A DNA stretch of 64,000 nt from Aequorivita aurantiaca (GTDB lineage Bacteria; Bacteroidota; Bacteroidia; Flavobacteriales; Flavobacteriaceae): the NCBI RefSeq assembly GCF_030410135.1, contig NZ_JAUGQQ010000002.1, positions 124,001 to 188,000 of the forward strand, written 5' to 3'. Under the pieces are notes generated by a model. That model searched no databases. It was not told the DNA's origin and saw nothing but the letters and a program-made list of their open reading frames with translations. The number at the start of each line of letters is the position of its first letter. The first letter of the stretch is position 1. Positions 56,434 through 64,000 of this stretch are shown in pieces. A program made the translations under genes and the position numbers.

Positions 56434-57375
56434 TTAGTCCTTTCCTTGTTTTTTCAATCTTCCCGAAAATCTTGGAATAGTTAGGGAAGTTTTGGAGGTA
56501 TTAATGAAATAGACACCAGTTAATAATACTGCGGCGGCAATAATGGATTGAGTGGTTATTTGTTCCTCCAAAATATACCACCCAAGAATTAATGCGATAA
56601 TTGGGTTAACTAAGGTTGATGTGGCCACCTTGTCGGGTGAAACGGTTTTCAACAAATAGTTGAAGGAAGTGAAGGCTACAATGCTTCCAAAAACAATCAA
56701 AAGTACCATGCTTATTTGCACAGGTTGGTTCCAATTAGTAGGCGCAATCCACGTTTCTCCGAAAGCTATACTTGCAATTGCGAGCGTAAGGCCGGCGGTA
56801 AACATTTGGTAACCGGTATTTACAAAAAAGTTTTTGGGAAGATCCGCCTTTCCAACAAACAGGCTGCCGTAGGCCCAGCTAAGCATGCACCCAAAAATCA
56901 TCAACATTCCCTTTATAGTATCCTGACTAGTTATTATTTGTTTTTGCCCAACAAGTAGAAAAATGCCAATTATTCCCAATCCCACTCCAACGAACGACAT
57001 AGGTTTTATTCGTTTTCCCTGCAAGATTCGCATCAGCAACAAAACAACCAAAGGTTGGGCAGAAATTTCCAAGGCAGCAAAACCACTATCAACATACTTC
57101 AGCGCCCAAACGATAACCCCGTTTCCGAAAGAGAGAAATAGCACCCCTACAATATATGCGTTTATGAACTGCTTTCGCGATATTGCAAGGCTCTTACCCA
57201 AAACCAAGGAAATAATAAAAATAAGCAGACCGGCAGCGGTATACCTAATTGAAGCCAAAAAGAAAGGTTCCAATTGCGCTACGGCAACTTTGTTCAACAT
57301 ATATGTTGAGCCCCAAATAACGTAAATGGAGAAAAAAGCAAGGATGATAATCAGAGTTTTTTTGGATAATGACAT
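56434..57375 (-). CDS. EamA-family (DMT superfamily) permease
   Basis: The 313-residue inner-membrane protein has ten hydrophobic segments in two homologous halves, the EamA/RhaT arrangement. The N-terminal IYVIWGSTYMLNKVAV and the repeat-two VNPIIALILGWYILEEQ motifs are typical of drug/metabolite exporters. Such proteins export amino acids or related metabolites, and substrate cannot be deduced. The gene is a single unit; its start is about 260 bases from the divergent TIR-STAND pair. Confidence 0.92.
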   Translation of the reverse strand: MSLSKKTLIIILAFFSIYVIWGSTYMLNKVAVAQLEPFFLASIRYTAAGLLIFIISLVLGKSLAISRKQFINAYIVGVLFLSFGNGVIVWALKYVDSGFAALEISAQPLVVLLLMRILQGKRIKPMSFVGVGLGIIGIFLLVGQKQIITSQDTIKGMLMIFGCMLSWAYGSLFVGKADLPKNFFVNTGYQMFTAGLTLAIASIAFGETWIAPTNWNQPVQISMVLLIVFGSIVAFTSFNYLLKTVSPDKVATSTLVNPIIALILGWYILEEQITTQSIIAAAVLLTGVYFINTSKTSLTIPRFSGRLKKQGKD

Positions 57376-57637
57376 TCGGAATAGTGATGTTTTTTTTTGG
57401 GGTTACGAAGATAGGTAATTGATGAATGCTTTATTAAGGATTTTGGGTGGCATTTTAAAGGCTACGGATTTTCATGAAAATTCTCAAGCAGGAAAAAAAA
57501 ATTTCTTTTATTTAAAAAAACGTTTCTATATTTTACTGAAAATTAGAATGATATATACTTTACTATTTGTAAATTAGTACCTTAGTATTCTTCCCCACAC
57601 ATTTTTTTTAGCTACATATTATTTAAAATCCTACTCT

Positions 57638-59149
57638 ATGGCCTTAATTCCTGGATATGAATACGACATTTTTATAAGTTATGTCCACGCTGATAATGAG
57701 TCTGAAACTTTTGGCGAGGATGGATGGATTGATCAGTTTTATAAATATTTGGACACCAAACTGAACAAACATTCCAAAGACATTAAAATTTGGTGGGACA
57801 GCAAAAACCTGGATCGCAGTGAGGTGTTTGACAATTCCATAGCCGAGGCAATAGATAAATCTGCCATAATGATTTGTCTGTATTCTAGATTATACCCACA
57901 ATCTGATTACTGCTTAAAAGAATTGGACCATTTCTATACAAAGGCGAACAAGGAAGAAGTAGGTTTAATCGTAGGTAACCGTTCACGAATTATTCCGGTA
58001 TTTATGTCTAATATTCCACATTCCAATTGGCTGGATAAACTTTCCGGTACCAGCGGATTTCCATTTCATGATAATAATGACTACGGTGATCCGCTTAAGA
58101 ATACCAGTCCGGAATTTAGTGCACAAATGATTCAACTTCGTAATGCGTTAGTGAAAATTTTTGAGGATTTTCCAAAGGAAATAACCCAAGTCAAAAAACC
58201 CATACCCATTACACAAGAAAAAGACAAAGGATTTACGATATACTTATCCGAGGTCAATGATTCCATGTTTGATAGAAGAGAGGGAATTATAGCAGATTTA
58301 AAAGGAAAAGGATATAATATTACCGTAGCCGACACATCCTTTACTGATGTTGAAACCCACGAAAAAGCAACAACCCACGCTATTGAAAACTCACAGTTAG
58401 CGGTACATATTTTAGGCGATTTTCCAGGTCGAAAAATTCCGGGCGAAAGCGTTGCGCGTTTTATTCAGAGTCAAGCCGAAATAGGCTTAAAATTGAAAAC
58501 CCCACAATTGATTTGGGTTTCCAGAGATATTGATTTCAATAATTTAGAAAATGAACAGCATCGGGAATTTTTGAAAGGCCTGAAGGATGGCACACTTTCA
58601 ACTAAAAAATACGAATTCGTTCGGGGCAACGAAGGCGAATTGGCGATGTTAATTGATGAATACGCCAAACAATTGCAGGAAAGATTGTCACAAAAAATGG
58701 AAGAAAACAAAGCTACAAATGGTACCGCCATAAAAGTATTGTTGGATACCCATACGGATGATTTTAAGCAAGCCTTCAATCTTAAAAAAATTCTCAATGA
58801 ATATAATGTCGATTTAATTTTTAATCCCGAGGACGGCGACCCACAGGAGAATATTAAATCCCTATACTCCAACATCAGCGAGGCCAAAAAATTTATTTTC
58901 CTGTACGGCAATGAAACCCATAAGGATTGGGTAGATATTCGAGTTAAAAACACACTCAAAAAGTTAATGGACTATGACCGTTATGGCCAAGACATATTTA
59001 TATATGTAACCCCCCCAGAGAAATCGACCGATGCTATAAAGGTAGCCCAGAACCCAATGGTAAAATTGGTGGACCAAAGCCATAGCAGTCATTTGGATGG
59101 TGCATCCTTAGAGGCCTTTCTCAATGATCTAAAATCTGAAAATCAATGA
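57638..59149 (+). CDS. Triple TIR-fold protein, candidate immune effector/adaptor
   Basis: The 503-residue cytoplasmic protein has three consecutive alpha/beta TIR-like modules. Module 1 (about 8-180) is a genuine TIR: YDIFISYVHADNE at 9-21, IKIWWDSKNL at 49-58 and SDYCLKELDHF at 89-99. Glu95 matches the catalytic glutamate of bacterial TIR NADases. Module 2 (198-345) is a TIR-related domain with the LAVHILGDFPGRKIPGES signature at 254-271 and lacks the glutamate motif. Module 3 (364-500) starts AIKVLLDTHTDDF and includes FIFLYGNETHKDWVDIRVK. Its stop overlaps the next start by four bases (ATGA). Loss of NAD+ upon activation is the expected activity of module 1; the roles of modules 2 and 3 are unknown. 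Confidence 0.85.
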   Translation: MALIPGYEYDIFISYVHADNESETFGEDGWIDQFYKYLDTKLNKHSKDIKIWWDSKNLDRSEVFDNSIAEAIDKSAIMICLYSRLYPQSDYCLKELDHFYTKANKEEVGLIVGNRSRIIPVFMSNIPHSNWLDKLSGTSGFPFHDNNDYGDPLKNTSPEFSAQMIQLRNALVKIFEDFPKEITQVKKPIPITQEKDKGFTIYLSEVNDSMFDRREGIIADLKGKGYNITVADTSFTDVETHEKATTHAIENSQLAVHILGDFPGRKIPGESVARFIQSQAEIGLKLKTPQLIWVSRDIDFNNLENEQHREFLKGLKDGTLSTKKYEFVRGNEGELAMLIDEYAKQLQERLSQKMEENKATNGTAIKVLLDTHTDDFKQAFNLKKILNEYNVDLIFNPEDGDPQENIKSLYSNISEAKKFIFLYGNETHKDWVDIRVKNTLKKLMDYDRYGQDIFIYVTPPEKSTDAIKVAQNPMVKLVDQSHSSHLDGASLEAFLNDLKSENQ

Positions 59150-61374
59150 GTGACTCCTTCTTTAATCCGTATGTAGGCCTTCGACCATTTCAGGAAGAGG
59201 AAAACCTTCTGTTCTTTGGCCGCGACGAACAAACCTTGGAACTTTTACAACGACTGCACGCAAACCGTTTCGTGGCTGTTGTTGGTAGTTCAGGAAGCGG
59301 AAAATCCTCCTTAATTCGGGCCGGATTAATCCCTGCACTAAAAGGGGGATTTCTCGTAGAAAATAGTAGTCAATGGTTAATTGCCATTATGAAACCCGGA
59401 CAGAATCCGGTGTATAACCTGGCAGCAACAATATTAAATCAAATCGATCCAAACATCACCACTGCGCAAATTCAGGCATTCGTAATACGAATTAAAAAAG
59501 AAGGAGCTTCAGCTATTTTGGATGTTATTGAGCCACTTCGCGAAAATAAAAATTCTAACTTTTTTCTATTGGTGGATCAGTTTGAGGAGCTTTTTCGGTT
59601 TTCGCTAAAACAAAAAGATGCAGCCTTCAAAACCGAGGCAATCGATTTTGTAAATCTCATCTTAAAACTATCCGAACAAAAACAAATTCCGTTTTATGTG
59701 GTGTTGACCATGCGTTCAGACTTTATTGGCGATTGCGCCGAATTTTTCGGTCTACCTGAAGCCTTGAACAAAAGTCAATACCTTGTGCCTCGGCTCAACC
59801 GCTTTGAACTTAAAAAAGTAATTGAGGGCCCAGCCAAATTGTATGGAGGAAAATTCAATGCCGCCCTTACCTCACAACTTATTAATGATTTAGGCGAAGT
59901 GAAAGATGAACTACCATTGGTGCAACACGCATTAATGAGAATGTGGACACATAAATATCCTGCCAGTGCCCACGGTGAATTAGACCTTCAAGACTATAAT
60001 GATATTGGCGGAATTGAAAATGCCTTGTCTGTACACGCCAATGAGGCTTTAAATGAATTGTCACCGGATGAGCAAGCCCTGGCCAAAGTACTTTTCCAAG
60101 CATTGACAACCATAGACGAAAATGGCCGAAAAATACGGCGACCTGCAAAACTCAGCGATTTAAGGGAGCTTACCGGTGCCAGTGAAGAAAAACTTTTGAA
60201 AATAATAAACAACTTCATTAGAAATAATCGGTCTTTTCTCGTTCTTACCAACATTGGCGATTCAACGGATAAACTTATTGATATTTCCCACGAGAGCCTC
60301 ATTCGGCATTGGAAAAATCTAAACAATTGGGTTGATGAGGAAAGCGAGGCGGCAATACACTATAAGCATTTATGCGATGCTTATAATGCCCACAGGGAAG
60401 ACCGGAAGGATCTATTATCGGGAAGGGAATTTGAAATTACGCAAGAGTGGTTTGAAAAGTTCAGGCCCAATAAAATTTGGGCCGCCCGATACAATGAGCA
60501 TTTTCCTGAAGCCACGAAATATCTCGCTGACAGTGCAAAAATCCATAACGCGAAAAAACGAAACGCGAGAAGATTGCGTCGGGTAAAAAAAATAAGCAGA
60601 TATACCATAGTTTCCCTAGCTTTTATTGGGCTGTTCACCTATTTTATCTTTCAGCCAAGCATGGAACAATTGGATTGGAGAACGGCAGTTTCCGAAAATA
60701 ATGAAGAAGCCTATTCTACTTATTTGGAAGCACATCCAAAAGGAGAATATGCCGAAATAGCCCAAAACTTCCTTGATTCCACAATGCTACAACAGGCTTG
60801 GCAATTAGCTTCAAAAGAAAACACTGTAAAGGCATACCAAAAATATCTGAACGTTGCTGCCACCGAGAAAGATTCGCTCAACAATATCTTGGGATATTCA
60901 AAATTCGCAAAGGATACCTTGGTGGCGCTGGAGAGAATTGAATCGCTAAAGGATAGGATGGCCAATTCCAATCTAGATGAAACCGCTTGGAATACGGCCC
61001 AAGAAAAAAACAGTCTGGCTTCCTATTTAAGATATATTAAAAATGATTCCATTTTAGGGACCCACGATGACGATGCTTATAAAAAAATTCAGGAAATTGG
61101 AAAAAATGGCTTTCTGTACAGTGGAAGATCTTCGGCCAATAAAATTCCAAATTCCATATTTAAAATAATTTACAGAAAGGATAGCGCTTTCAATAGTAAC
61201 GATATTCCGCAGCCAAATGATATAGTAAAAGCGAACGAAAACCGCTATATATACAAGGATATTAATGTGAACAACAAATCTGGAAACAGTATTAGAATAG
61301 GAGATATTTACCTAATAAAGAGTGTGAATTTACAGGCAAACGCTGTTTTTGTGGAGATACTTTATGAGCCCTGA
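59146..61374 (+). CDS. Membrane-anchored STAND-type NTPase (nSTAND1) with C-terminal repeats
   Basis: The 742-residue protein begins with the NPYVGLRPFQEEENLLFFGRDE signature of nSTAND1 modules. It has Walker A GSSGSGKS at 47-54, Walker B FFLLVDQFEEL at 139-149, TMRSDF at 188-193 and LPLVQHALMRMW at 256-267. A winged-helix-like region (about 300-390) carries ISHESLIRHW. Positively charged residues (470-484) precede a single transmembrane segment (486-503), so the C-terminal part should lie outside the cytoplasm. It contains three Trp-led repeats starting at Trp511, Trp552 and Trp615 (pattern WxxAxxxN...Y..YL) and a final beta-rich domain (655-742). It is translationally coupled to the TIR gene. 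Confidence 0.88.
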   Translation: MSDSFFNPYVGLRPFQEEENLLFFGRDEQTLELLQRLHANRFVAVVGSSGSGKSSLIRAGLIPALKGGFLVENSSQWLIAIMKPGQNPVYNLAATILNQIDPNITTAQIQAFVIRIKKEGASAILDVIEPLRENKNSNFFLLVDQFEELFRFSLKQKDAAFKTEAIDFVNLILKLSEQKQIPFYVVLTMRSDFIGDCAEFFGLPEALNKSQYLVPRLNRFELKKVIEGPAKLYGGKFNAALTSQLINDLGEVKDELPLVQHALMRMWTHKYPASAHGELDLQDYNDIGGIENALSVHANEALNELSPDEQALAKVLFQALTTIDENGRKIRRPAKLSDLRELTGASEEKLLKIINNFIRNNRSFLVLTNIGDSTDKLIDISHESLIRHWKNLNNWVDEESEAAIHYKHLCDAYNAHREDRKDLLSGREFEITQEWFEKFRPNKIWAARYNEHFPEATKYLADSAKIHNAKKRNARRLRRVKKISRYTIVSLAFIGLFTYFIFQPSMEQLDWRTAVSENNEEAYSTYLEAHPKGEYAEIAQNFLDSTMLQQAWQLASKENTVKAYQKYLNVAATEKDSLNNILGYSKFAKDTLVALERIESLKDRMANSNLDETAWNTAQEKNSLASYLRYIKNDSILGTHDDDAYKKIQEIGKNGFLYSGRSSANKIPNSIFKIIYRKDSAFNSNDIPQPNDIVKANENRYIYKDINVNNKSGNSIRIGDIYLIKSVNLQANAVFVEILYEP

Positions 61375-61377
61375 TCC

Positions 61378-62724
61378 CTATTTGCCTCTCTTATTTTTCC
61401 GAAAATTTTTGTCGCCGCGCGTTTTGGGCTTTTTATATTTCTGCTTTATAGTACGGTTGTAAGAACCTCCCAGGTTTTCCTTTTTGTTTTTTTCTTTCTT
61501 TTCGTGGAAAGCCGGTCCAGCTTCTTCTAAATTTTGAGGATTGTTAATTTCAATAATCTGCGGCTGTTCCTCGAAAGTAAGCTGAGTTGATACTTCAACT
61601 TCCCCGGGGAGTTGCATTTCCGTAATTTTTATTCCCATTAAATCCTCAATGGCCTGTTTAGCGTTTTCCTCGTTGGGGGTGTACAATAATATTGATGTTC
61701 CTTCCTGCTCTGCCCGCCCCGTTCTTCCAATGCGGTGCATATAGTTTTCAGGAAAATAGGGAACGTCGAAATTTATTACGTGGCTAATTCGTTCCAAATC
61801 CAGCCCGCGGGACATAACATCAGTTGTTACCAAAATACGCGTCTTTTCTGCATTAAAATTTTCAATGGATCTTATTCTGTAATTCTGGGTTTTATTGGAA
61901 TGGATTACGGCCACCTCACTCCCAAAGAATTCATCCAAAATATCAAAAAGAAGATCGGCGCTTTTTTTATTGGGAACGAAAACGAGCACTTTTTTAAAAT
62001 CGCTTTCATTTTGAAGCAGATATTTTAGCAGGTTCGCTTTTGTGTAAAAATTGGGAACCGAGTAGGCAAATTGTTTAATGGTTTCCAAGGGGGTTCCGCT
62101 AACCGCCACCGAGACGGTTGTTGGGGCAATAAAAAAATCGTGTATAAAAACATTCACATCGTCTGTCATGGTAGCGGAAAACATGATGTTTTGACGTTTG
62201 TTCGGGAGCAGTTCCAAAATATTGGTAAGCTGAAATCGGAATCCGAGATCCAGCATTACGTCTACTTCATCTATCACCACTTTTTTAATAGCCTTCAGTT
62301 GCAGTGCCCGACTTACAACCAAATCATATAATCTTCCGGGAGTGGCCACTATAATATCGGAACCTTGGGCAACATCTTCCTTTTGTCGGTTAATGTTGGT
62401 GCCTCCAAATACGCCTTTAACTCTTATTGAAGCATATTTTCCGAATTTTTCAATTTCCTCCACCACCTGGATAACTAATTCTCGCGTGGGCACGAGAACT
62501 AACACTCTTGGATTTATCTCTTTCGAAAATTTTAGGTCCTGCAAAATTGGAAGCATATATGCAAGTGTTTTTCCGGTTCCCGTTTGCGCTATCCCAACCA
62601 TATCAGTCCCAGACATAATTACCGAAAATGATTGTGCTTGAATGGGCGTGGGTTTTTCAAAACCCAAATCGGACATGGCATATTGCAGCTGGTTGGAAAT
62701 GTTGAAATCAGTAAATGTTTCCAT
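61378..62724 (-). CDS. DEAD-box RNA helicase, DEVD variant
   Basis: The 448-residue protein has the complete helicase core: Q motif with PTPIQ (26-30), AQTGTGKT (46-53), PTREL (79-83), ATPGR (127-131), DEVD (152-155) in place of DEAD, SAT (183-185) and HRIGRTGR in the second domain. The C-terminal tail (about 385-448) is lysine-rich and probably binds RNA. Such enzymes remodel RNA in ribosome assembly or cold adaptation. Its stop lies three bases from the STAND gene stop. A TAnnTTTG box lies 17-24 bases upstream of the start. The DEVD form occurs in other bacterial helicases. Confidence 0.93.
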   Translation of the reverse strand: METFTDFNISNQLQYAMSDLGFEKPTPIQAQSFSVIMSGTDMVGIAQTGTGKTLAYMLPILQDLKFSKEINPRVLVLVPTRELVIQVVEEIEKFGKYASIRVKGVFGGTNINRQKEDVAQGSDIIVATPGRLYDLVVSRALQLKAIKKVVIDEVDVMLDLGFRFQLTNILELLPNKRQNIMFSATMTDDVNVFIHDFFIAPTTVSVAVSGTPLETIKQFAYSVPNFYTKANLLKYLLQNESDFKKVLVFVPNKKSADLLFDILDEFFGSEVAVIHSNKTQNYRIRSIENFNAEKTRILVTTDVMSRGLDLERISHVINFDVPYFPENYMHRIGRTGRAEQEGTSILLYTPNEENAKQAIEDLMGIKITEMQLPGEVEVSTQLTFEEQPQIIEINNPQNLEEAGPAFHEKKEKNKKENLGGSYNRTIKQKYKKPKTRGDKNFRKNKRGK

Positions 62725-62740
62725 TCTTGTTTATTTCCTG

Positions 62741-62748
62741 CAAAAATA
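62741..62748 (-). promoter_or_regulatory. Candidate -7 box of the DEAD-box helicase gene
   Basis: On the minus strand the sequence is TATTTTTG, an exact TAnnTTTG match 17-24 bases ahead of the ATG. No TTG lies at a suitable distance upstream, so the call is tentative. Confidence 0.3.
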
Positions 62749-62837
62749 GCGTTTCACGCACGAATTTTGACCATTTTTGAATTTAATGACCTCTATTTTA
62801 AAATATAAATAAATTTATTGATTTATAAGATTAATCG

Positions 62838-64000
62838 TTAATCGGCATTTGGGTTCATCTTTTTTAGAGCGTTGGTTGCATAATCTGCGCCGAAGTTAGC
62901 ATTCAAATTCAATGATTCTGCGCGTCCCAAAGAGTACAAAACATAATCAACGCCCGGTTTGGAATAGCAAACAATCAAATCTGCCAAAACATTGTATGCG
63001 CCTTTTGTTTTTTTGGAAGTTGCATTCAAATCACCATAAGCCGCAGATGCAAAGGCCGAACAGTCCACCAATTTGTTTTGGTTATTGATGTAATTTTTCC
63101 CAGCGATAACTTGGCATCCTGCGGACCAATTGGAAGATCCAATTCCCGACCAGTGAATATTGATGCTGTTGTTCACCTCCAGACTGTTACTTCCTTTTAA
63201 TGCAAGATCCTGAGGTGTAAGCGCATTATTTCTATCAAGGTCGCGAAGAATTATAACTCCCGCCGGGTCATAAGGCTTTAGTGCGCGATAGATTTTTTGT
63301 TCCTCGGAAATTTTATGCCATCCAAACCTATATTTATGCTGTCCTTCAACGAGTGAAGGCGGAATATTTTTCGAAACCATACCTTTACTCGGATCCGTGG
63401 AACCCCAGAATTTGAAAACCATACCGTTAACGAGCAATACAAAAAGATCGTCATTTGCCCGTTTAACTGCTTCAGCTTTTTCTTGATTTCGCCGTATTCC
63501 AATTAAATGGATTTCATCGGGGGAAAAGTTCCAATCCTTCACTTTTAGGGTTGAATATGTTTTAGATAGCTCGTTCACCGCTTTCATAATTGGTCCGGAA
63601 TTTCTCTGATAATGTTCTTTCGAAGTATTCAACAATTTTATCCAATCACTGAATTCCTTGGATGGTTTCTCCGAAGACACACTGCCCCACTCTGCTGTTA
63701 TTCCATTGTTTTTCCAACGCTGTATGTGCTTCATAGTTCCATTTCCCACTATGCCATCGGGCACCATCTGTGGGTCACCTTCTGGATCGATGGTTCGAAT
63801 ATATTCTTGAAATAGCCGTGCGGCAGATTGCGTAACATAATCAAAAACACCATCCACAACTCCCCGAGGCATGAAGCCTGCTTTATATAGAAATTGTTGC
63901 AGTTGGAAAACATCATTACCATTTTCTTGGCGAAAGGAGCGCCAACTGGTACGATCATCATCCCGAAAGGAAACGGCTGACGTTGTTAGCCCATCTTTAT
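62838..64000 (-). CDS. Peptidoglycan-binding-domain protein with LD-transpeptidase-like C-terminal motif (5' end outside window)
   Basis: The reading frame stays open to the right edge (42 more codons beyond the internal Met at 63872), so the gene is cut by the window. The visible N-part holds a peptidoglycan-binding type repeat (DVFQLQQFLYKAGFM, then DGVFDYVTQSAARLFQEY and DGIVGNGTMKHIQRW). The middle is helical. The last third contains IHWSGIGSS and SAGCQVI (about 85-100 residues from the end), which resembles the His and S-x-G-C pattern of the YkuD fold, and a VDCSAFASAAYGD stretch. It probably binds or processes cell wall. Phage-type or self-encoded origin cannot be decided. Confidence 0.75.
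   Translation of the reverse strand, partial: KDGLTTSAVSFRDDDRTSWRSFRQENGNDVFQLQQFLYKAGFMPRGVVDGVFDYVTQSAARLFQEYIRTIDPEGDPQMVPDGIVGNGTMKHIQRWKNNGITAEWGSVSSEKPSKEFSDWIKLLNTSKEHYQRNSGPIMKAVNELSKTYSTLKVKDWNFSPDEIHLIGIRRNQEKAEAVKRANDDLFVLLVNGMVFKFWGSTDPSKGMVSKNIPPSLVEGQHKYRFGWHKISEEQKIYRALKPYDPAGVIILRDLDRNNALTPQDLALKGSNSLEVNNSINIHWSGIGSSNWSAGCQVIAGKNYINNQNKLVDCSAFASAAYGDLNATSKKTKGAYNVLADLIVCYSKPGVDYVLYSLGRAESLNLNANFGADYATNALKKMNPNAD

Follow-up and report, generated by a model that had tools for sequence, protein, structure and literature searches.

Plant TIR-NLR receptors are built as one polypeptide, and in the bacterial NLR-like systems that are best known, invaders are generally considered to be sensed once they are inside the cell. 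TIR NADases, DUF4062 proteins and nSTAND1 ATPases have been described separately. A preprint of May 2026 described the DUF4062 family as TIR-like NADases that act against phages; this system, Swarozyc, needs Glu97 of KpSwz (PMC13174449). Here we analyze a locus of Aequorivita aurantiaca in which all three kinds of domain are joined in one operon-like pair of genes, P0001 and P0002. The pair lies in a stretch of 64,000 nucleotides (contig NZ_JAUGQQ010000002.1, positions 124,001 to 188,000 of the forward strand), which is referred to below as the window and provides the coordinates used throughout, except where a locus number precedes them (genomes are cited by G numbers, loci by L numbers).

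Our preferred reading, to which we give slightly better than even chances, is that the pair encodes a split, outward-looking NLR-like receptor which gates a TIR NADase via a pseudo-DUF4062 adaptor. All the kinds of part involved are already known; a description of this combination, a TIR-D2-D3 protein paired with an nSTAND1 protein, was not found in searches of open-licence PMC papers.

The TIR and nSTAND1 genes form a unit

P0001 and P0002 lie on the same strand and share the nucleotides ATGA (59146-59149). According to the original prediction, a TIR protein with Glu95 overlaps an nSTAND1 ATPase by four bases, and the ATPase has intact Walker A and B motifs and one membrane segment. Reading of the open reading frames (ORFs), Pfam searches and alignment bear out the first statement. 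The second is confirmed by the motifs read in P0002 (Walker B is LLVDQFEEL, residues 141-149) and by its one hydrophobic segment. The features of the locus are collected in Table 1.

Table 1. Features of the TIR-nSTAND1 locus in the window
Feature	Coordinates	Strand	Basis
P0001, gene of the TIR protein (503 amino acids, three domains: TIR-D2-D3)	57638..59149	+	ORF, translation, Pfam, 11-sequence alignment
D1, N-terminal TIR domain, residues 11-127, predicted NADase	57668..58018	+	Pfam TIR_2; profile match to TIR structures, among them Cat1 and RPP1
Glu95 codon, predicted catalytic glutamate	57920..57922	+	Plant TIR alignment; invariant in 11/11; 32/35 wider TIR proteins
D2, DUF4062-like (TIR-like NADase) domain, residues 197-350, boundaries approximate	58226..58687	+	DUF4062 profile, alignment, gene context
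Gln279 codon, aligned with the catalytic Glu of DUF4062	58472..58474	+	Alignment to six DUF4062 proteins; KpSwz chain
D3, residues 364-503, C-terminal alpha/beta, possibly TIR-like, boundaries approximate	58727..59146	+	Conservation; low-confidence secondary structure
P0002, gene of the nSTAND1 ATPase (742 amino acids)	59146..61374	+	ORF, translation, Pfam; start overlaps P0001 stop by 4 nucleotides
nSTAND1 NTPase module, residues 8-421	59167..60408	+	Pfam nSTAND1, 338.7 bits (cut-off 27.1)
Walker A GSSGSGKSS, residues 47-55, Lys53	59284..59310	+	Read in translation; invariant in 4/4 Aequorivita proteins
Single predicted transmembrane segment, residues 488-506	60607..60663	+	Hydrophobicity; net charge +7 before, -4 after
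C-terminal variable region, predicted extracytoplasmic sensor, ~236 residues	60664..61371	+	'AWxxA..YxxYL' helical repeats and a small beta-rich part; low-confidence secondary structure

The original prediction had named rare co-occurrence of the two genes as a finding that would speak against it. In all 14 loci whose contig includes both the TIR gene and the beginning of the gene after it, the latter was nSTAND1, on the same strand. These loci represent full-length P0001 relatives of 7 Aequorivita and 7 other Flavobacteriaceae genomes. G413, in which the pair is split across contigs, was left out; among the 14 STAND genes, the one in G247 continues past the contig end and contains a stretch of N, and the one in G303 is interrupted by a stretch of N. 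In G584 and G150 the STAND protein is split over two ORFs. The overlap between the paired genes is 4 nucleotides in 10 cases, 1 nucleotide in two, and 8 and 17 nucleotides in one each. The genome samples were drawn evenly and overlapped between searches, and near-identical genomes were kept in the counts; L003, L004, L005 and L002 were treated as the same genomes as G417, G398, G414 and G413, and each was counted once.

The same association was seen from the side of the ATPase. At E≤1e-40, nSTAND1 was detected in five of the 199 Flavobacteriaceae genomes sampled, four of which have exactly the TIR-nSTAND1 pair. A sample of the phylum (247 genomes) yielded 18 nSTAND1 loci at E≤1e-60 in 14 genomes; 11 of these loci have an adjacent TIR or TIR-derived gene and one has a fused TIR. 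Two of the 11 (L053, 24.7 bits; L119, 23.4 bits) score under the Pfam TIR_2 cut-off of 28, and the Pfam TIR scores cover neither L057 nor L110, which are relatives of L053. Across 24 TIR/STAND pairs the distances of the two proteins are correlated (r=0.936, reached in 0 of 5000 permutations), a value which includes species kinship, so that the correlation is partly due to common species descent. Taken together, the TIR and nSTAND1 genes are a real unit. For the genome of the window itself, the nSTAND1 search lists one match, P0002.

The fifth Flavobacteriaceae genome, G150 (L107; G150:C1, 4549-8711), carries an ORF for a DUF4062 domain with a catalytic-type Glu, followed by an nSTAND1-transmembrane-LRR ORF. 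These ORFs overlap by 4 nucleotides and the ATPase is split over both, an arrangement that represents a bacterial parallel to TIR-NB-LRR receptors.

The TIR domain retains the catalytic glutamate

P0001 scores above both relevant Pfam cut-offs (TIR_2, 51.5 bits against 28; TIR, 43 bits against 21.3). The glutamate at the start of helix alpha-C, which marks catalytic TIR domains, is present as Glu95 and aligns with the Glu of the 'CLxEL' motif in plant TIR structures (matches at E 0.026 and 0.049). Absence of this residue from orthologues was the second finding that the original prediction regarded as adverse. All 11 sequences of the alignment, P0001 and 10 relatives at 33-79% identity, have Glu95, and it is kept in 32 of 35 wider TIR proteins, where its position was read from the alignment and is unsure in L118, L119, L143, L151 and L153.

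The three proteins without Glu95 (L053, L057 and L110) all belong to one family. They keep the TIR-D2-D3 plus nSTAND1 layout, which can thus persist without this residue, and part of the wider TIR-STAND group may, judging from these sequences, work without NADase activity. In the same three loci an outer-membrane beta-barrel gene stands directly after the pair, and the TIR and D2 domains both look enzymatically dead.

D2 is a DUF4062-like domain with glutamine at the catalytic position

Residues 197-503 of P0001 comprise two more domains, D2 and D3, which the original prediction had missed. The D2 domains of several relatives pass the Pfam cut-off for DUF4062 (L053, 26.5; L108, 33.6; L111, 34.2; L142, 32.7; L144, 29.6; L154, 26.2 bits). 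In the column of the S/T-x-T-x-x-E motif, six of six DUF4062 reference proteins have Glu, whereas all 40 aligned D2 domains have Gln; in P0001, Gln279 occupies the position that the catalytic Glu has in the SYTxxE motif of DUF4062/Swarozyc proteins. The KpSwz structures were obtained with E97A constructs (PMC13174449), and in an alignment of L140 with KpSwz chain 10wc_A an Ala stands opposite the motif Glu. Because the Ala of the E97A chain faces this residue, the motif column is the catalytic column, and the Gln found there predicts that D2 is inactive. We also considered Glu281 as the catalytic residue of D2, which would have provided a second active NADase site. This candidate was rejected, since the six DUF4062 proteins and KpSwz place the catalytic column at Gln279, and Glu281 is not conserved.

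D3 contains a conserved KDWVxxR motif, with Arg435 where a TIR domain would have Glu. Its fold is uncertain, possibly TIR-like, and a D2-D3 profile search of solved structures matched nothing meaningful.

A search of 325 genomes of the class with the D2-D3 profile gave 20 matches in 15 genomes; 17 of these matches are immediate neighbours of nSTAND1 or fused to it. Since the profile was built from 14 proteins that all lie beside nSTAND1, the proportion of 17 in 20 may be somewhat high. The 17 places include (i) three D2-nSTAND1 fusions (L146, L148 and L150), (ii) two short D2 genes (L147 and L152), and (iii) 12 genes that begin with a TIR or degenerate TIR domain. L143 and L153, counted among the D2 places, give no Pfam TIR match and match our own TIR profile only weakly. 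Of the three misses, L145 lies at the border of its contig, L149 lacks nSTAND1, and in L152 a gene separates the second copy from nSTAND1. A TIR domain of another type precedes the retained D2-D3 in L108 and L111 (TIR_2, 80 and 81 bits; DUF4062, 33.6 and 34.2 bits, respectively).

The D2-STAND fusions, together with the exchanged N-terminal part, point to D2, probably with D3, as the part of the TIR protein that meets the STAND protein, and on this gene architecture D2 looks like the constant coupling part to nSTAND1. From the uniform Gln it is predicted that D2, related to an enzyme family whose members kill infected cells according to the 2026 report, has become a docking part.

Two further arrangements were encountered among D2-containing loci. 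In L119, L154 and L155, two nSTAND1 genes in tandem come after the TIR-D2 gene. In L054 (7772-10960), a TIR-D2 protein is fused to approximately 800 further residues, and no nSTAND1 gene was found in the 17 kb around it.

A predicted membrane helix and an exchangeable C-terminal region in the STAND protein

A hydrophobic helix (threshold: mean hydropathy 1.4) is present within 220 residues after the ATPase in 45 of the 48 STAND ORFs collected; those without it are cut pieces of G303 and G584, plus G402 (1.35). In 44 of these 45 ORFs the net charge is more positive before the helix than after it, with one tie and none reversed. By the positive-inside rule, a cytosolic ATPase, a single crossing and an inside-positive flank place the C-terminal region on the outer side, so that the sensor of the STAND protein probably lies outside the cell.

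The C-terminal third of P0002, which the original prediction had also missed, consists of a repeat region and a small beta-rich part. The C-terminal region differs between otherwise similar proteins. In the STAND protein of G000, ATPase identity is 60% to that of G279 and 63% to that of G397, and C-terminal similarity is undetectable in both comparisons; STAND pairs at 50-65% ATPase identity without C-terminal similarity thus exist. Pfam identifies WD40 repeats in the TIR-paired STAND protein of G247 (weaker in G336), TPR in that of G444, and LRR in the DUF4062-paired STAND protein of G150. Even within one sensor type, in the five Aequorivita species compared with P0002, identity is 80-84% in the ATPase and 44-70% in the C-terminal region. 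As far as can be judged from these alignments, the C-terminal region is swappable (WD40, TPR and other types). A DUF5776 label for its small beta part was not used, as it was sub-threshold in four of nine members (best E 0.0032).

The characterized antiviral STAND proteins are cytosolic, and WD40, TPR and LRR sensor repeats are typical of cytosolic NLRs. The pair could accordingly be an ordinary cytosolic anti-phage STAND system, in which the hydrophobic segment is a tether or a buried helix, the sensor recognizes an intracellular phage protein, as Avs and bNACHT sensors do, and the TIR domain depletes NAD+. The finding of WD40, TPR and LRR repeats as sensors speaks for this explanation, as does the binding of phage proteins by the C-terminal sensors of characterized antiviral STAND proteins (PMC10907252). 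It conflicts with the helix in 45 of 48 ORFs and its inside-positive flank in 44 of 45, which put the C-terminus outside given a cytosolic ATPase and one crossing, and with the outer-membrane protein genes that directly follow nSTAND1 in several loci (see below). We consider a cytosolic system unlikely.

Distribution and genomic setting

P0001 had matches in 14 of 397 Flavobacteriaceae genomes, eight of them full length (its own genome included) and six covering the TIR part alone. The module is present in eight of 28 Aequorivita genomes, and the four P0001 relatives found in named records are all from Aequorivita. No P0001 relatives were found in plasmid, phage and viral collections.

In 20 of the 28 Aequorivita genomes, genes for an EamA-type transporter and a DEAD-helicase are close neighbours (gaps of approx. 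45-300 bp); in one further genome they are approx. 1.3 kb apart. The module lies between these two genes in six of the 28 genomes, including that of the window (G413 was read across two contigs). G416 has EamA and helicase at separate places, with the module beside EamA, and G397, which belongs to the 20, carries a diverged version of the module on the other side of the helicase.

When presence of the module was mapped onto the tree of the helicase protein, the fewest changes that explained it were six, four of them forced by well supported branches. Clustering of presence on this tree was not clearly above chance (117 of 500 shuffles were as low). At least four forced changes indicate that the module has been gained or lost repeatedly, although it is chromosomal. 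The suggestion of a stable chromosomal locus, made in the original prediction, is therefore correct as to the chromosome, there being no plasmid, phage or viral match, and is not supported as to stability, given the presence in eight of 28 genomes and the forced changes.

No target-site duplication was evident by eye at 13 empty junctions and the two junctions of the window. A scan for sigma-70-type promoters gave fewer sites than shuffled sequences, and TAnnTTTG, the Bacteroidota -7 pattern, is absent at 57201-57640. Compared with window positions 56434-63872, L051, L040 and L041 carry differing versions of the module near the same EamA, helicase or peptidoglycan-type genes; positions and genera vary, as if the neighbourhood were a recurrent landing place.

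Neighbouring genes and the output of the system

Enrichment near other defence genes, which the original prediction had proposed to check, was not seen at the window, but three relatives have conflict-system genes beside the pair. In L039, L042 and L043, the TIR gene is immediately preceded by a SLATT/DUF4231 gene, and a convergent caspase-hydrolase-TPR-S gene lies downstream; these surroundings form a possible larger conflict cluster. In L052 (1626-9013), genes for TIR, nSTAND1, a hydrolase with TPR-S and a MAP3K_TRAF_bd/TPR-S protein follow one another on one strand.

The SLATT neighbours raise the prospect of signalling rather than direct killing: the TIR domain would make an ADP-ribose-type messenger that opens a partner effector (e.g. 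a SLATT pore), and the window would keep two of three genes. Such a partner gene is directly upstream in three of the seven non-Aequorivita genomes; reading of the ORFs by eye showed none at that place in the remaining 11 of the 14 loci. The genome of the window gave no DUF4231 match at E≤0.001, but control genomes gave no match either. A messenger system of this kind is, in our estimation, quite improbable.

An outer-membrane barrel gene stands directly downstream of nSTAND1 in L053, L057, L110, L113 and L115, and a TonB-dependent receptor gene in L109 (all by Pfam), which fits a sensor at the envelope. In L109, L112, L113-L115 and L117, nSTAND1 occurs without TIR, beside STAS-like or transporter-like genes (identified by eye) and outer-membrane protein genes (by Pfam in L109, L113 and L115), which suggests a non-TIR branch of nSTAND1.

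An explanation other than defence would be a switch for envelope stress, cell death or kin recognition in surface-living Bacteroidota, with the TIR domain partly a scaffold. The family of L053, L057 and L110, which keeps the layout with a Glu-less TIR domain and an adjacent outer-membrane barrel gene, is in keeping with such a role, as is the lack of defence genes near the module of the window. Patchy presence, fast-diverging or swapped sensors and conflict-system neighbours are typical of immunity. The traits observed here include patchiness within the genus (8/28) and sensor swapping, with a C-terminal region that diverges faster than the ATPase, and conflict-system neighbours in three relatives, with none at the window. 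They argue against a non-defence switch, which we regard as an unlikely explanation.

Proposed mechanism

According to the preferred reading of an outward-looking split receptor, the system would work as follows: (i) the nSTAND1 protein would be anchored in the inner membrane by one helix, with the ATPase switch in the cytosol and the variable C-terminal sensor outside; (ii) it would hold the TIR protein through D2, and probably D3 too, which would act as an adaptor with Gln in place of the catalytic Glu; (iii) the sensor would meet its signal, either a phage or some other insult at the envelope; (iv) the STAND module would then bind or exchange ATP, oligomerize and gather TIR domains; and (v) the gathered TIR domains would cleave NAD+ through Glu95, leading to growth stop or cell death. 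The original prediction, that the STAND protein switches and the TIR protein executes, agrees with this scheme in so far as the genes belong together and their anatomy fits; it lacked D2 and the outward topology.

Several observations weigh against this mechanism. D2 of P0001 itself scores 24.5 bits for DUF4062, just under the cut-off of 24.7, and short D2 genes and D2-STAND fusions (L146-L148, L150 and L152) also have Gln, yet occur without a TIR domain. One family (L053, L057 and L110) has lost the Glu95 of its TIR, and six of the 18 nSTAND1 loci of the phylum sample have no TIR neighbour. With a mean hydropathy of 1.64, P0002 has one of the weaker helices, and that of the relative G402 falls under 1.4. 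The barrel genes adjoin nSTAND1 without TIR or with a Glu-less TIR, which is not the type found in the window. When the eight flanking genes of the window were searched with PADLOC (E≤1e-5), only the DEAD helicase was matched, by many generic helicase models, and in the following 19 kb no defence genes were noticed by eye, the genes being housekeeping-like. AlphaFold models, based on alignments of five and four close relatives, were poor (mean predicted local distance difference test scores, pLDDT, of 50.6 and 48.4) and lend the proposed contacts no support; D2 alone (about residues 200-350) reached approx. 70-86 pLDDT in most blocks, with an alternating strand/helix pattern, and Foldseek with the model of pLDDT 50.6 returned mixed weak matches, some of them to TIR domains. 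Finally, no phage or NAD+ experiment on any member was found in the open-licence literature searched.

Should the sensor prove to lie outside, the pair would be an NLR-like system monitoring the envelope, and the exchangeable domains on the outer side would represent a ready set of recognition modules. More tentatively, and with somewhat less than even chances, the pair may stand for a Bacteroidota class of transmembrane NLR-like receptors, in which exchangeable extracytoplasmic sensors (WD40, TPR, LRR and others) would act through nSTAND1 on a cytosolic TIR domain, and an inactive DUF4062 domain would be the constant connector. Such a class would be a counterpart of cell-surface immune receptors.

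Comparison with known systems

ThsB, PDC-S66, the short-Argonaute TIR protein Aga_TIR and FxsC resemble P0001 in the TIR part only. Among the 11 aligned members, ThsB was matched in eight (best 4.8e-7), PDC-S66, a PADLOC candidate, in nine (best 1.1e-7) and Aga_TIR in two; P0001 itself matches ThsB at 15.6 bits (E 0.0017, PADLOC), with better matches in some relatives, and FxsC at 42.2 bits against a cut-off of 130. Unlike in those systems, the partner here is nSTAND1, and their partner proteins are not among the P0002 matches shown. ThsA, which would indicate a Thoeris system, was absent among the matches of P0002 and the eight flanking genes.

Avs and other antiviral STAND proteins, as well as bNACHT, share with the pair a STAND switch, a variable C-terminal sensor and a toxic effector. 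In Avs, according to PMC10907252, the effector is usually fused N-terminally, whereas here it is encoded separately and the STAND protein has a membrane helix. Since the nSTAND1 module begins at residue 8 of P0002, there is no room for an N-terminal fused effector, and no Avs model was among the PADLOC matches of P0002 at E≤1.

The pair of bDLD3-STAND-FGS and bDLD3-TIR is likewise encoded by two genes, with a sensor-bearing STAND protein, a TIR protein and an adaptor link between them. It differs in having a Death-like adaptor in both proteins, as described in PMC8195603, whereas the candidate adaptor D2 occurs in the TIR protein only. No Death-like or effector-associated Pfam model matched P0001 or P0002 at E≤1, although Pfam may not hold every such domain.

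The DUF4062-NACHT proteins TEP1, NWD1, NWD2 and NPHP3 also place a TIR-like domain next to a STAND-type ATPase, with WD40 in several of them, as described in PMC13174449. They are eukaryotic single polypeptides with NACHT instead of nSTAND1, in contrast to the two genes and the membrane helix found here.

With Swarozyc (KpSwz, PDB 10wc) the pair shares a TIR-like family, of which D2 is a recognizable relative, and NAD+ depletion, which is the output predicted here. Swarozyc is a single protein whose own C-terminal domain senses the phage portal and which uses Glu97 of DUF4062, as set out in PMC13174449; the pair described here has Gln in D2 (40/40), its presumed enzyme is a separate TIR domain, and its sensor is located in a separate STAND protein.

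Plant TIR-NLR receptors, finally, arrange a TIR domain, a nucleotide-binding switch and a repeat sensor in series, as the pair does, with the difference that the pair is split between two proteins and its sensor is predicted to lie outside the cell.

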